DNA of 64,000 nt. Source: an uncultured Methanobrevibacter sp. (lineage in GTDB: Archaea > Methanobacteriota > Methanobacteria > Methanobacteriales > Methanobacteriaceae). The notes under the pieces were generated by a model. That model did not search any database and was not told the DNA's origin. It was given only the letters and a program-made list of their open reading frames with translations. Made by a program: the position numbers and the translations under genes. The stretch is taken from positions 1 to 64,000 of the forward strand of contig OMVX01000015.1 of NCBI GenBank assembly GCA_900314605.1, in the 5' to 3' direction. Positions 204 through 24,571 of this stretch are shown in pieces; position 1 is the stretch's first letter; each line of letters starts with the position of its first letter.

Positions 204-872
204 TTAATCATGTTTTAAAAAGTCCCTAATTCTCCATATTGACTTTCTGTTCATTCTTGAAATTGCCCTCTGGGTTGGTATTCCAACAGGACATGATTCC
301 TCACATGCAAGAGATTTAATACAATGATTATAGAATTTTTCCTTATAATCTTTTTTAATCTCATTTAGATGTTCTGTGTCATTTTCCTGATTAATCAGTT
401 TTGATGCTGAAACTGGAATGTGAGGCCCAACAAAGTTCCCCAAATCATAATTAGGACATGCTTCACAGCAACATCCACATAAAATACATAAAGACATATC
501 ATATTCAAAATCAATTTCTTCGAATTTTATTTTAGCATTACTTTCAAGCCATAACTTAGAATTTTTCATCGAATCATATAATATAGACCTGTCCACTTTT
601 AAATCTTTGATTAATGGGAATTTAGATAAAGGCTCTATTGTTATTGTATCATATTCATATGTCATTTGTTCTTTATTAAGGAATGTCTTGCATGCCAATT
701 TAGGCTCACTATTTATAACCATTGTGCAAGCTCCACATATTCCCTGAAGACAACTGCATGAATATTCAACAGGATTTCCCAATTTTTCAAGTAGGGAAAT
801 GACTGTTATATTTAAATCATCATTATAGTGAAATTTAAGATATTCCTCTCCAACCTTAATTTTAACTTCCAT
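204..872 (-). CDS. Fumarate reductase/succinate dehydrogenase iron-sulfur subunit (SdhB/FrdB-like)
   Basis: This subunit would carry electrons through three iron-sulfur clusters to the flavoprotein encoded just upstream. Numbering from the ATG at 872, the plant-ferredoxin-type [2Fe-2S] cysteines are C41, C46, C49 and C61. The second motif is C129-x2-C132-x2-C135-x3-C139-P and the third is C184-x5-C190-x3-C194-P, as in SdhB/FrdB. I chose ATG 872 over an upstream TTG at 884 because it follows GAGTGAT and begins four bases after the flavoprotein stop. At about 222 residues it is classical SdhB size. The C-terminal HdrD-like CCG part of methanogen TfrB, which oxidises CoM-SH and CoB-SH, is absent, so the electron donor should differ from that of thiol:fumarate reductase. 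It is the last gene of a four-gene leftward operon. Confidence 0.9.
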   Translation of the reverse strand: MEVKIKVGEEYLKFHYNDDLNITVISLLEKLGNPVEYSCSCLQGICGACTMVINSEPKLACKTFLNKEQMTYEYDTITIEPLSKFPLIKDLKVDRSILYDSMKNSKLWLESNAKIKFEEIDFEYDMSLCILCGCCCEACPNYDLGNFVGPHIPVSASKLINQENDTEHLNEIKKDYKEKFYNHCIKSLACEESCPVGIPTQRAISRMNRKSIWRIRDFLKHD

Positions 873-876
873 ATTA

Positions 877-2388
877 TCACTCAAAAAATATGTTTATTTC
901 TCCATCATAAAGGACATTAGATGTTTTTTCAAATTCTAAAACAGTTTTAGGATAATCAATTCTTTGATGTGCTCCTCTGCTTTCTTTTCTTTCAAGAGCT
1001 GATAGTATACATGCCTTTGCAAGAATGATAATTGGAGTCTCTTTCATATTACTCAACTCATCTAAACCTTTATTAAGATTTTCGTCATCCCTGTATAAAC
1101 CCATTGAACGAGACATAATTTCAGCCAATCTCACATCATTTTGAGTTGGAAGAGTAGTTTCCTTTTGAATGATTTTACCAGAGGGATTTTCTAACAAAGC
1201 ATTCTCAGCAGCTATCCAACCTCCATGAATGGCTCCTAAAAGTGAATTACCACCTAATCTGTTAGCTCCATGATACTGAGAAGAGCATTCTCCTGCAGCA
1301 TACAACCCACGAATGTTTGTCTTATGATTTGCATCTGTTTTGATTCCCCCCATAAAATAATGAACTCCTGGAAAAACCGGAATAGGCTCTACAATAGGAT
1401 TTAAATTCAAGTATTGAGTGCATACATCATAAACCTCATCCAACTTGACTTTTATAGTATCCTTATCCAAATGAGTAATGTCCAAATATACCTCCTTTTC
1501 ACCACCAGAAGATGCCTTGTAGATACTTCTTGAAACAACATCTCTTGGCATTAGTTCCGCCATTTCAGGATACCATTCCTGCATAAAATAGTATTTTGTA
1601 TTATCTCTCATAACATAAAGTTTACCCCCTTCACCACGTGCCGCTTCAGTAATAAGCATTCTTTTGTTAGGAGTTAGGACAGTTGTAGGATGGTATTGAA
1701 TCATTTCAAGATTTGATAGCTGTACTCCTTGAGTCAATAATTTTGCTGTAACATAACCATCATTCTGTGTTGATCCAACCGTCTTACCGAATAATGAATT
1801 AAGACCTCCAGAAGCTATAATCACTGCATCACCAACAAATGACTTAATCTCTCCATCATCTTCATTTACACAAACAACACCTACACACTCATTATTATCT
1901 GTAAAAATCAAAGAAAGAAATCTCCAACCGACATGTCTTATAATATTCCCATAATCTTCATATTTTCTACATTGATTCACAAGGGCAGTTACGATTTGTT
2001 TTCCAGTTCTTGCACCTGCATAGGCAGTTCTTTGCTTTTTCTGACCTCCAAAATACCTTAAATCAATGTTTCCATAACTATCTCTTGTAAAGTTTGTTCC
2101 TATTTTTGAGAGCCACTCAACAATTTTAGGAGCATCATTAGTTAGTTTAAAAACTGCATCAACATCATTGATTTCACATCCTCCCCTCATAGTATCAATA
2201 AAATGCTGTTCTGACGAATCATTCTGACCTTTTGTATTTAAAGAAGCATTAATACCTCCCATAGCCATTACTGATTGTGAACGTTCAGAATAGTCAGGAG
2301 ATATCAAATCTACAACTGCATTATCAGAAGCTTTTATAGCAGCAGTCAAACCAGCAACCCCTGCTCCGACTACAATTATCCTCTTCAT
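877..2388 (-). CDS. Fumarate reductase/succinate dehydrogenase flavoprotein subunit (FrdA/SdhA-like)
   Basis: This FAD-dependent subunit should interconvert fumarate and succinate. The N-terminus has the dinucleotide fold (VVGAGVAGLTAA). Family motifs follow: GGINAS near residue 45, the YHPT histidine, EAARGEGG, the catalytic MPRDVVSRS arginine, HYFMGGIKTD, and HGANRLGGNSLLGA near the FAD ribityl site. At 503 residues it is shorter than typical SdhA (about 570-640) and closer to TfrA or NadB. The residue that carries covalent FAD in canonical SdhA (the His in SHTVAAQGG) appears as Gln here (SQSVMAMGG), so FAD is probably non-covalent, which favours fumarate reduction. GGGAG precedes the ATG. 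It overlaps the upstream membrane-anchor gene by 4 bases. L-aspartate oxidase is an alternative, but the adjacent FeS and membrane subunits argue against it. Confidence 0.87.
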   Translation of the reverse strand: MKRIIVVGAGVAGLTAAIKASDNAVVDLISPDYSERSQSVMAMGGINASLNTKGQNDSSEQHFIDTMRGGCEINDVDAVFKLTNDAPKIVEWLSKIGTNFTRDSYGNIDLRYFGGQKKQRTAYAGARTGKQIVTALVNQCRKYEDYGNIIRHVGWRFLSLIFTDNNECVGVVCVNEDDGEIKSFVGDAVIIASGGLNSLFGKTVGSTQNDGYVTAKLLTQGVQLSNLEMIQYHPTTVLTPNKRMLITEAARGEGGKLYVMRDNTKYYFMQEWYPEMAELMPRDVVSRSIYKASSGGEKEVYLDITHLDKDTIKVKLDEVYDVCTQYLNLNPIVEPIPVFPGVHYFMGGIKTDANHKTNIRGLYAAGECSSQYHGANRLGGNSLLGAIHGGWIAAENALLENPSGKIIQKETTLPTQNDVRLAEIMSRSMGLYRDDENLNKGLDELSNMKETPIIILAKACILSALERKESRGAHQRIDYPKTVLEFEKTSNVLYDGEINIFFE

Positions 2389-2939
2389 AAAATAACTCCC
2401 CTATTATAAACTAATTCTGCCAGTACCAAAATCACTAAAATTATAAATAGTACACAGTTAGTCTTATACTTAAAATTCAAATATTGATTTTGTCCATCTA
2501 AAAATCCTAATGATATCATCAATCTTGGAATTGAAACTCTTAAATGAAAAATCAATGAAATAAAGAATAAATTATCAACTACAAAATGAAACACACCCAC
2601 CCATGAAGCATAAACTGAATTCAAAGGAGCTAAACTATAACTGATAATGTGCATACTCAAAAAAATAATTATAAAAATTCCTGTAACAATTTGCTGTGTT
2701 GTATCCTTAATTAATTTAGAATATCTGTTGCCTCTTTTGGACTTATCTTTCAAATAAAGATATAAACTAATGAAAATATGTGCAACAACCGGATAAAAAA
2801 TTCGTCTACCAGTTATCTGAAAGCTGGCAGAATAACCGATAATACCAAACAGATGCAAAACAGATAAAATTGCATGATGTAAAAGCAATAATAATATAAT
2901 TATTACTATAATAGTATCAATTTTTTTAAGTGAAATCAT
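2385..2939 (-). CDS. Predicted membrane anchor of the fumarate reductase, possible diheme cytochrome b (SdhC-like)
   Basis: This 184-residue protein has five hydrophobic segments (about residues 9-32, 46-63, 84-103, 114-134 and 160-178). That is the length and topology of the single-anchor cytochrome b of Bacillus SdhC and Wolinella FrdC. The first four helices each hold at least one histidine: H21/H22 and H29, H54, H97, and H132 (H118 is also present). Spacings H22-H97 (75) and H54-H132 (78) resemble the paired axial ligands of diheme anchors. Its gene lies between the CDP-alcohol transferase and the flavoprotein with 4-base overlaps on both sides. Heme binding is an inference from the histidine pattern. 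Methanobacteriales are regarded as cytochrome-free, so a heme-free anchor remains possible. Confidence 0.6.
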   Translation of the reverse strand: MISLKKIDTIIVIIILLLLLHHAILSVLHLFGIIGYSASFQITGRRIFYPVVAHIFISLYLYLKDKSKRGNRYSKLIKDTTQQIVTGIFIIIFLSMHIISYSLAPLNSVYASWVGVFHFVVDNLFFISLIFHLRVSIPRLMISLGFLDGQNQYLNFKYKTNCVLFIILVILVLAELVYNRGVIL

Positions 2940-3427
2940 TTTATCACATTTCTAATTCTTGAAATGGAAGATATAACTGCACAGACTGTTATAAATATTG
3001 CCAAAAATGTATTAATCATTTCTGAATGGATTAAAAGTGCAACTATTGGATATACATAAAACATTAAAGCAACAATATGGCCAAATTTTTCATAATATAA
3101 ATCATTCCTTGATGAAATAGAAAAAAACTCTACTAATTTAAATATAATGATAAATAAGAACCAAAATGGAATAATATTTCTCATAATAACAGCAAAAGTA
3201 GAAAGAATAATAAATATAAAATCACAAATCACATCTAATTTTGCACCTTCATTTGTGTTTAATTTGTATTTTATAGCTATTTTACCATCAAAATAATCAG
3301 AAAATGTCGTTAAAATAAAAATTAATAATAAAAAATATATATTAAAATCTATTAATGTGAAATATAAGAATAACAATCCAAAAAATATTCTACATAAAGT
3401 CAAAATATTTATATAACTCTTTTGCAT
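2936..3427 (-). CDS. CDP-alcohol phosphatidyltransferase family membrane protein
   Basis: Members of this family transfer a phosphoalcohol group between CDP-activated lipid or alcohol substrates in phospholipid synthesis. The signature D44-xx-D47-G48-xx-A51 ... G61-xxx-D65-xxx-D69 is present with its four acidic residues. The usual Arg after Ala is Ile52. The 163-residue protein is mostly hydrophobic, with about five membrane helices, and is short for the family. It is the first gene of the fumarate-reductase operon and overlaps the membrane-anchor gene by 4 bases (ATGA), so the two are translationally coupled. GGTGT lies before the ATG. The substrate cannot be told from sequence. A link between a lipid headgroup enzyme and a reductase complex is unusual. 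Confidence 0.75.
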   Translation of the reverse strand: MQKSYINILTLCRIFFGLLFLYFTLIDFNIYFLLLIFILTTFSDYFDGKIAIKYKLNTNEGAKLDVICDFIFIILSTFAVIMRNIIPFWFLFIIIFKLVEFFSISSRNDLYYEKFGHIVALMFYVYPIVALLIHSEMINTFLAIFITVCAVISSISRIRNVIK

Positions 3428-3440
3428 AATACACCATTTA

Positions 3441-3554
3441 CTATAATAAGTATTAATAACTATAATAAGTATTAATAACTATAATAAGTATTAATAACTA
3501 TAATAAGTATTAATAACTATAATAAGTATTAATAACTATAATAAGTATTAATAA
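3441..3554. repeat. Tandem repeat, six copies of a 19-bp unit
   Basis: Six head-to-tail, essentially identical copies of tataataagtattaataac start at 3442, 3461, 3480, 3499, 3518 and 3537. The array ends 14 bases before the start codon of the first gene of the fumarate-reductase operon, with only the ribosome-binding site between. A TATA-like element lies on the far side, so the array is probably transcribed as part of the 5' leader. The copies are pure, which suggests recent expansion or slippage. Confidence 0.95.
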
Positions 3555-3936: not shown

Positions 3937-4540
3937 TTATTCATCTTTTTTATAGTCAATAATCGCAAATATCCTTTTGATACTTGAAAATGATGTTTCA
4001 ATTGAAGCCATCGAGGAACTTAAGTCTTTAATAGGTTTTGTTAATAATTCTCCATACATAATAATTGCCAAAAGAGTTCCTAATTGTATTTCATGACCTA
4101 CTAAAAGGTAAATCCCTGCAATATAAACAGTAATATTACTTATATTTGTTAAAAAGGTTGTAATAGGCACCATAACCTTAGCAATGTTTCTGGATTTGAT
4201 ATAATAACCATTTACAGTTTGATTGATTTTTTTAAACCCTTTTACATGAGATGAATCACGATTTGCTAGTCCTCTTTCAAAATAACCCATCATTCGCCCC
4301 ATATGATTTTGATGACCATTGAAATTGGTTTTAGATTTAATATGACATACATATAAGCAAATTGCATAAATCGGAAATATCAACAGATAAACTAAACCCA
4401 GTCTAAAGTCTGTCATTAAAATCAACACAAATACAAAAATTATCAACAAAATTTGTGCATAGATTTCAGAAAAACGAAAAGTGATGAACTCCCTAATGAG
4501 CATTAAATCGTTGTTTAGTCTAGATAGAATATGGCCTTTT
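3937..4540 (-). pseudogene. ABC exporter transmembrane-domain fragment (truncated at both ends)
   Basis: The frame encodes the middle of a type-1 ABC exporter membrane domain. The KGHILSRLNNDL segment, encoded before the first in-frame ATG (4503), matches the conserved GDLLSRLTND region of such exporters. About four membrane helices follow, and the end resembles the SIKRIFAIID linker. The first two helices and the whole nucleotide-binding domain are missing. The open frame begins exactly at the edge of a 37-bp repeat (4541-4577), so the upstream break coincides with that element. From the ATG at 4503 it could still make a 188-residue protein, but that would have no ATPase domain. Confidence 0.8.
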
Positions 4541-23239: not shown

Positions 23240-24571
23240 TTAATTAAACTTTTTACTTACTTCTTCTACAGCAAGAACAAGTGGATCGGTCACCATTGAT
23301 ACTGGTGGAGCATAAGCAAATTCTACATTACTTAAATCAAAGCAGTCTAAACCTTCTGTTATAGCAAGTGTCATAGTATCAATTCTTTCTGCTACACGTT
23401 CTTCTGCAATAATCTGACAACCAATAATTTTACCGTCAGCATCACAGATTACTTTAATATCCATAGGTTTAGCATTTGGATAATATCTTGCCCTTGTAAA
23501 TGCTTCAACTTTTTGTGAAATAGTTTTAATATTATTTTGTTCTGCAAAATGTGTTGTAAGTCCAACTGCACCAAATTCTAATTTACCGACTTTTGTAACC
23601 ATTGAATTTAATACAGGGTAGAATTTAGATTTTTTACCTGCAATTGTTTGTGCACATGTTTTTGCTTGACGTACTGCAGTTGTTCCAAGTTGTGAAATTG
23701 TATTTGACTGTAAGATTGCATCATAGGATTCTACACAATCACCTACAGCATAAACATCCTCAACTGTTGTTTTCATACTTTCATCAACAAGAATAGCCCA
23801 TTTACCAATTTCACATCCAATCATCTTAGCAAGTTCTAATTCTGGTCTAACTCCTGTTGCAAGAATAACCATATCTGCAGGATATTCCTCTTCATTATCG
23901 ATTACAACTCCTGTAACCTTATCTTCACCGGAAATTTTAGTAATAGGTTTTCCAAGAATAACATTTATTCCTTCATCTTCTAAATATTCAGTTACGATTG
24001 AAGCCATATCCGGGTCTAAAGATTTTGGCACTATCTGTGGTAACATTTCATTTAAAATAACATTTAATCCTAGTTCTTTAAATGCATAAGCGATTTCAAT
24101 ACCTATAAGTCCTGCACCAGTAACTACAACATTTTTACAGTTTTTAACCCATTCCTGAACATTTTTACCGTCATTGAGATTTCTGATTTTAAATACACCA
24201 TCTAAATCAGATCCTGTAATTGGAGGTACAAATGAATTTCCACCAGTTGCAAGAACAAGTTTATCATATTCCATAGTTTTAACTTGTCCCTCGTTTGTAT
24301 AGGTTAATTCTTTCTTTTCATGGTCTATTTCACTTACCTCTGAATTGATTAAAACATCTATATTGTTTTCTTTATAATCTTCAGGGGTTTTCATTACAAT
24401 ATCATCAAAAGATTTAATAGTTTGTCCTAGTACATAAGGTATTGCACATGGAGAATATGCTATGTAGTTATCTCTTGTTATAACAGTTATTTCTATGTCT
24501 TTATCTAATTTTCTGATATTAGAAGCTGTAGGCAAACCTCCAGCTCCTCCTCCAATAATTACAACTTTCAT
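23240..24571 (-). CDS. FAD-dependent pyridine nucleotide-disulfide oxidoreductase (NADH oxidase/CoA-disulfide reductase family)
   Basis: This flavoprotein uses NAD(P)H to reduce oxygen, a CoA disulfide or another thiol substrate. The FAD site is GGGAGGLPTA at the N-terminus. A single redox cysteine (C42 in AYSPCAIPYVLG) marks the NADH oxidase/CoA-disulfide reductase branch, not the glutathione-reductase type with CxxxxC. VVVTGAGLIGIEIA near residue 150 is the NAD(P)H site. VEDVYAVGDCVE near 270 contacts FAD, and a dimerisation domain follows. Its 443 residues are typical. In an anaerobic methanogen it probably helps in oxygen or disulfide defence. The exact substrate is not shown. Confidence 0.85.
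   Translation of the reverse strand: MKVVIIGGGAGGLPTASNIRKLDKDIEITVITRDNYIAYSPCAIPYVLGQTIKSFDDIVMKTPEDYKENNIDVLINSEVSEIDHEKKELTYTNEGQVKTMEYDKLVLATGGNSFVPPITGSDLDGVFKIRNLNDGKNVQEWVKNCKNVVVTGAGLIGIEIAYAFKELGLNVILNEMLPQIVPKSLDPDMASIVTEYLEDEGINVILGKPITKISGEDKVTGVVIDNEEEYPADMVILATGVRPELELAKMIGCEIGKWAILVDESMKTTVEDVYAVGDCVESYDAILQSNTISQLGTTAVRQAKTCAQTIAGKKSKFYPVLNSMVTKVGKLEFGAVGLTTHFAEQNNIKTISQKVEAFTRARYYPNAKPMDIKVICDADGKIIGCQIIAEERVAERIDTMTLAITEGLDCFDLSNVEFAYAPPVSMVTDPLVLAVEEVSKKFN

Follow-up and report, generated by a model that had tools for sequence, protein, structure and literature searches.

Positions 204–3427 on the minus strand of the window contain four closely packed genes, in the operon order P, FrdC, FrdA and FrdB. 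The window is the whole stretch of DNA analysed here, 64,000 nucleotides from an uncultured Methanobrevibacter sp. (GenBank assembly GCA_900314605.1, contig OMVX01000015.1). We lean towards the view that this operon encodes a class-B diheme fumarate reductase with non-covalently bound flavin adenine dinucleotide (FAD), that it came from gut Firmicutes, and that it works with scavenged heme and, most likely, scavenged menaquinol. The analysis establishes which genes are present, how far they are conserved, to which fold the anchor is related, where the operon occurs and which of the biosynthetic families searched are absent; from this we infer the heme occupancy, the scavenging, menaquinol as donor, the direction of the reaction and the role of P. 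Methanobacteriales are the standard example of cytochrome-less methanogens.

Operon layout

P and FrdC overlap by four bases, as do FrdC and FrdA. For FrdB two start codons were considered. TTG at position 884 gives an open reading frame of 204–884 (226 amino acids), whereas ATG at position 872 gives a protein of 222 amino acids (MEVKIK...) and is the likelier start because FrdB of close relatives is 221–222 amino acids long. With this start, FrdA and FrdB do not overlap. The overlapping four-gene operon of the original prediction thus holds for the first two junctions, and probably not for the third. The C-A-B order of the frd genes is kept in dozens of genomes. Compared with the nearest relative, the ratio of non-synonymous to synonymous substitutions (dN/dS) was 0.07–0.31 for all four genes, which points to purifying selection on each of them.

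The membrane anchor FrdC

FrdC (2385–2939, minus strand) is a protein of 184 amino acids for which single-sequence searches against Pfam, NCBIfam and the Protein Data Bank (PDB) returned no match. Its AlphaFold2 model, with a predicted local distance difference test (pLDDT) score of 90.3, consists of five helices (residues 4–30, 38–66, 74–103, 112–143 and 150–183). Helices I–IV carry one of the four histidines H22, H54, H97 and H132 each, which bears out the arrangement that had been proposed from the sequence. An alignment of 22 methanogen anchors contained eight invariant columns, including these four histidines. Among 35 archaeal and bacterial anchors, 15–72% identical to that of the window, six columns were invariant, namely H22, H54, G87, H97, H132 and G145. 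In a set of 72 anchors, three of the four histidines occurred in all sequences and H22 in 71, with one gap, while the other histidines of the window anchor (H21, H29 and H118) varied.

A profile built from the 35 sequences matched the diheme FrdC of Wolinella succinogenes (E 1.3e-4). In this alignment the histidines of helices II, III and IV pair with histidines of the Wolinella protein; helix I lies outside the main aligned stretch. The anchor is therefore placed with a diheme FrdC, as originally suggested, and not in an unrelated family. The best PDB matches of the model in a Foldseek search were Chloroflexus SdhC and Wolinella FrdC, with template modelling (TM) scores of 0.53–0.69 by query length and weak E-values (0.003–0.22). 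The family model sdhC_b558_fam (TIGR02046) did not match the window protein; 7 of the 22 methanogen anchors matched it weakly (best E 7.7e-5).

Lysine and arginine residues number two at the N-terminus, seven in the loop between helices II and III, and none in the I–II and III–IV loops; the IV–V loop is also positively charged. Because of these charges, the N-terminus and the II–III and IV–V loops are predicted to be cytoplasmic, on the side of FrdAB. In Desulfovibrio gigas FrdC, the distal heme is bound by histidines of helices I and III and the proximal heme by those of helices II and IV (His-C38/C129 and His-C79/C166, respectively; PMC6175931). If the N-terminus is inside, the FrdC model matches this pattern in both helices and depths, with H22/H97 near the outer and H54/H132 near the inner helix ends; this placement at the helix ends agrees with the expected pairing of the histidines across the membrane. 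The fold of FrdC as a diheme-type complex II anchor and its four-histidine site are well supported. H22/H97 are the predicted ligands of a distal heme b and H54/H132 those of a proximal one, and both hemes would probably be present in the protein.

The flavoprotein and iron-sulfur subunits

FrdA (877–2388, minus strand; 503 amino acids) is a fumarate reductase flavoprotein (FAD_binding_2, E 1.6e-81) that aligns with complex II flavoproteins across most of its length. Its top NCBIfam model was the Bacillus-like SdhA PRK08641, and it scored 386 bits against TIGR01812, under the cut-off of that model. The dicarboxylate-site residues H233, E248, R282, H343 and R377 were kept in all 88 rows of the FrdA alignment. 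At the position of the flavin-binding histidine, 85 of the 88 rows have a glutamine (Gln38), a frequency that is overstated among bacteria since one of the two patterns used to retrieve bacterial rows demands this residue. Of the three remaining rows, two hold FrdA of a different type and the third is TfrA. The replacement was also seen in alignment with solved SdhA and FrdA.

Because Gln38 replaces the FAD-binding histidine, FAD is predicted to be bound non-covalently. Covalent attachment lifts the potential of FAD by about 100 mV and is needed for succinate oxidation (PMC10238741). With non-covalent FAD, the enzyme should therefore run solely as a fumarate reductase and should not oxidise succinate.

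FrdB (204–872, minus strand; 222 amino acids from the ATG) is the iron-sulfur subunit, and scored 114.6 bits against TIGR00384 (dhsB; cut-off 88). It contains the cysteine motifs of a [2Fe-2S] cluster (CLQGICGAC..C, at residue 41), a [4Fe-4S] cluster (CILCGCCCEAC, 129) and a [3Fe-4S] cluster (CIKSLACEESC, 184). A domain search of the 222–226 amino acid protein revealed no CCG/HdrD domain, in agreement with the claim of a classical FrdB lacking an HdrD-like part. Against the TfrB model the score was 98, with a cut-off of 385. A separate TfrA-like flavoprotein, 37% identical to FrdA, is encoded on contig 51 of the source genome (C51:7982-9385).

Distribution and origin

Distribution was assessed in a panel of 139 Methanobacteriaceae genomes. 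FrdA of the window's clade (46–81% identity, full alignment) was found in 31 genomes. The anchor profile also matched 31, in a slightly different set. The operon is absent from the three remaining genomes that belong to the same genus as the window. Among the relatives that carry a name, the archaeal ones are Methanobrevibacter and Methanosphaera from rumen and gut, and the bacterial ones are Firmicutes such as Paenibacillus, Mageeibacillus, Blautia, Faecalibacterium and Ruminococcus. The anchored, diheme-type Frd of the original prediction is upheld, but it is not special to this genome: about 31 of the 139 Methanobacteriaceae genomes and many gut Firmicutes share it.

In an FrdA tree rooted with TfrA as outgroup, obtained by a quick tree search, the main methanogen group (27 rows) branched with Paenibacillus and Mageeibacillus. 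A second methanogen group (L091, L033 and L035) branched with Lachnospiraceae-type sequences. A single clade for both groups, which were named after the first tree was seen, was rejected by the approximately unbiased test (p-AU 1e-4). Since this constraint was rejected, methanogens likely gained the operon from gut Firmicutes through horizontal transfer in two acquisitions, a result that is not final.

Several variants of the operon were observed. Genome G070 has two diverged frdCAB copies (L018 and L044). Genomes G134–G136 (L037–L039) and G007 (L036) have a different, SdhA-like flavoprotein in which the flavin histidine is kept (checked in L036 and L037). Its gene adjoins that of an iron-sulfur subunit of 250–256 amino acids in L036–L039, and also a rhodanese gene in L037–L039; the hosts carry 3–7 UbiA genes. 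Among the operons L095–L145, the Ruminococcus-type ones have genes for FtsX-type ABC transporters and an FMN_bind lipoprotein upstream of frdCAB, and the Blautia-type ones have genes for a metal P-type ATPase and a DUF6921 protein upstream of frdC. FrdA copies are near-identical across Blautia, Peptostreptococcus, Megasphaera and others, which suggests a mobile element.

Heme and quinone supply

None of the 139 Methanobacteriaceae genomes contained AhbD or ferrochelatase over the cut-offs, and none contained MqnA/D. The source genome has one UbiA only and no extra quinone-type prenyltransferase, the classical men pathway being probed only via UbiA. The methanogen genomes with Frd have one UbiA-family gene each, except G097 and G103 with two, and the single UbiA is expected to be a membrane-lipid enzyme. 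In 23 bacterial carriers searched for UbiA and ferrochelatase only, and without regard to genome completeness, UbiA was missing from 19 and ferrochelatase from 21. The enzyme thus occurs mostly in organisms apparently unable to make its cofactor and its usual donor.

The search of the genome for heme and quinone genes suggested earlier thus yielded neither a gene for heme completion nor one for a quinone-specific prenyltransferase, so that the cell would have to scavenge whatever heme or carrier it uses. Heme binding, which would in turn entail heme scavenging, is the best explanation for four histidines that have stayed invariant since the transfer and despite low overall identity. In agreement with this, the literature describes these methanogens as unable to make heme, and heme uptake is known from a relative: the catalase of Methanobrevibacter arboriphilus requires added hemin (PMC13135261, PMC5467289). 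Faecalibacterium does not synthesise quinones, and its growth was induced by Escherichia coli only if E. coli makes menaquinone; it has been modelled with an NADH dehydrogenase and a fumarate reductase (PMC5738691). We found that Faecalibacterium carries a homologous frdCAB operon (L119 and L120).

Proposed mechanism and alternatives

In the mechanism that we propose, FrdC would be filled with heme b that the cell scavenges. Its electrons would come from a two-electron carrier soluble in the membrane, most likely menaquinol scavenged from neighbouring gut bacteria, which would give them up close to the distal heme on the outer side. They would then pass from the distal heme (H22/H97) to the proximal heme (H54/H132), the [3Fe-4S], [4Fe-4S] and [2Fe-2S] clusters and FAD, so that fumarate would be reduced to succinate in the cytoplasm. 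P would probably supply a polar lipid needed by the membrane subunit. We favour scavenged menaquinol as the donor with modest confidence, because Faecalibacterium, with its homologous operon, is the nearest experimental lead.

Several observations speak against this mechanism. The lower potential of non-covalent FAD makes menaquinol a less favourable donor, and purified menaquinones failed to induce the Faecalibacterium isolate (PMC5738691). Neither a quinone-reducing enzyme nor a heme importer was identified in the source genome, where the search for menaquinone genes covered MqnA/D and, for the classical men pathway, UbiA only. The equivalent of Glu-C180, part of the Wolinella proton pathway, is missing: position 130 is hydrophobic in the window anchor, and acidic in none of the 72 anchors. 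Moreover, two Methanosphaera-type genomes (G117 and G124; L030 and L031) have intact frdAB and no detectable anchor, the anchor is broken in G095 and G069 (L024 and L046), and G066 retains a 30-residue anchor remnant beside P. FrdC is therefore dispensable in some hosts, and the anchor is undergoing loss in some lineages. In G112 the anchor sits at a contig end.

Four alternatives explain the operon itself in other ways. A heme-bearing FrdC might be fed by a protein or an extracytoplasmic reductant, independently of any quinone pool. The scarcity of UbiA among the bacterial carriers, the only one or two UbiA-family genes in the methanogens with Frd, and the FMN_bind lipoprotein gene directly upstream of frdCAB in Ruminococcus-type operons fit this explanation. 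We nevertheless consider it unlikely, since diheme class-B anchors of known function use quinols and an FMN_bind protein occurs in 0 of the 139 Methanobacteriaceae genomes. The latter result rules out the FMN_bind lipoprotein as a partner of Frd in methanogens.

FrdC might also be only a docking anchor, often free of heme, with a cytoplasmic donor feeding FrdAB. Such a role would agree with the lack of detected heme synthesis genes and with the intact frdAB of G117 and G124. However, all four histidines are retained even in anchors of only 15% identity, whose remaining residues and histidines drift. A mere anchor would have no need of them, and we regard a docking role as slightly less likely again. 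Urocanate reductases and L-aspartate oxidases belong to the same flavoprotein superfamily as FrdA, so that the substrate could be another unsaturated acid, such as urocanate or acrylate. The full conservation of the five dicarboxylate-site residues and a subunit set equal to that of complex II render this improbable.

We give hardly any credence to a fumarate reductase of the TfrAB type, dependent on coenzyme M and coenzyme B (CoM-SH/CoB-SH): the TfrA and TfrB models do match, the best complex II models scoring higher, but FrdB has no HdrD-like part, TfrA is separate in the genome and FrdA groups with bacterial FrdA. Membership of TfrAB was rejected on domain content, so that FrdAB with its diheme-type anchor is distinct from TfrAB, as had been surmised. 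Equally little speaks for bacterial contamination of the assembly, a draft of 103 contigs with 3.83% contamination in which these genes are of bacterial origin; it was rejected on contig content and recurrence, as the source contig (contig 13 of the 2.37-Mb draft genome) also carries mch and archaeal pheT and is therefore methanogen DNA, and the same operon was met again in numerous assemblies, among them the one-contig G114, with diverged methanogen-specific sequences that form one branch.

The P gene and neighbouring features

P (2936–3427, minus strand; 163 amino acids), the first gene of the operon, encodes a CDP-alcohol phosphatidyltransferase (PF01066, E 4e-17) with the motif D..DG....G...D...D. 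Its best NCBIfam matches were cardiolipin synthase ClsA and PgsA, both under cut-off. Orthologues with at least 49% identity occurred in 18 of the 139 genomes, 14 of them in the frd operon and one (G066) beside the anchor remnant. Methanosphaera and G011 have more distantly related P genes next to frd, and P was not found beside the bacterial frdCAB operons compared. The linkage of P to frd suggests a supporting role; that P makes a polar lipid required by FrdC is a guess.

In four genomes (L015, L016, L017 and L045), the gene run is purF, U32 peptidase, P, cfbC and frdCAB. The CfbC-like gene between P and frdC (F430 synthesis reductase, over the NF033200 cut-off) lies at L016:3671-4468.

Directly upstream of P, in the expected promoter region, the window contains a perfect tandem array (3440–3554) of 6.1 copies of a 19-bp unit, and changes in copy number could alter expression of the operon. 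An apparent MsbA-like ABC transporter fragment at 3937–4503 covers only model positions 139–316 of 572, and is possibly a pseudogene. A flavoprotein resembling CoA-disulfide reductase and NADH oxidase is encoded at 23240–24571, with scores under the family cut-offs.

Implications

The open-licence literature, judged mainly from titles and abstracts, yielded no description of this enzyme from a methanogen, and the main text of a 2026 survey of Methanobacteriota mentions neither fumarate nor Frd (PMC13135261). About 30 methanogen genomes from rumen and gut maintain the conserved four-histidine anchor under selection, which implies that some of these organisms use membrane heme b that they are unable to make. 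If they do, fumarate would compete with methane as a second sink for electrons in the rumen, and the heme and menaquinone supplied by other members of the gut community would influence it. In a wider, tentative picture, which is possible rather than probable, gut methanogens counted as cytochrome-less would use scavenged heme to build a genuine b-type cytochrome. They would respire fumarate, with either a scavenged quinone or a non-quinone donor, as an energy-conserving electron sink alongside methanogenesis, and the same enzyme would serve many gut Firmicutes in which the heme and quinone genes searched are likewise missing. A clear test is possible, since culturable Firmicutes such as Faecalibacterium carry related operons.

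Comparison with known systems

Class-B complex II has a single anchor with two b hemes; covalent FAD bound via a histidine is usual in this class but not required, since the class is defined by the membrane region. The operon encodes a single five-helix anchor, four predicted axial histidines in helices I–IV, three iron-sulfur motifs and the dicarboxylate residues, whereas the histidine for covalent FAD is absent (Gln38). Judged by sequence, the membrane subunit would therefore make it a class-B fumarate reductase, and the flavin site a variant of one; neither heme nor a quinone is expected in its host.

TfrAB of Methanobacteriales likewise reduces fumarate, and TfrA is homologous to FrdA (37%). 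In contrast to the present enzyme, TfrAB is soluble, has an HdrD-like part in TfrB and has no anchor. The Bacillus-type SdhC family (TIGR02046, cytochrome b558) was the best NCBIfam family for distant anchors, and the best model of FrdA was also Bacillus-like. However, the window anchor itself was unmatched by this model, and the flavin histidine is missing in the window FrdA.

The class-B quinol:fumarate reductases (FrdCAB) of W. succinogenes and D. gigas share with the operon one five-helix anchor, histidines in helices I–IV and the complex II residues of FrdA and FrdB. They differ in that, in the window, the flavin histidine is replaced by glutamine, Glu-C180 has no equivalent and no heme or quinone synthesis was found in the host; moreover, the anchor is about 70 residues shorter than that of Wolinella. 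Next to the frdCAB operons of gut Firmicutes (Blautia, Faecalibacterium and Ruminococcus) and Paenibacillus, P was not found, and some have instead neighbouring genes for an FMN_bind lipoprotein, ABC transporter or metal ATPase. With the operon in the window they share the gene order, Gln38 and the four histidines, at an FrdA identity of about 45–55%.

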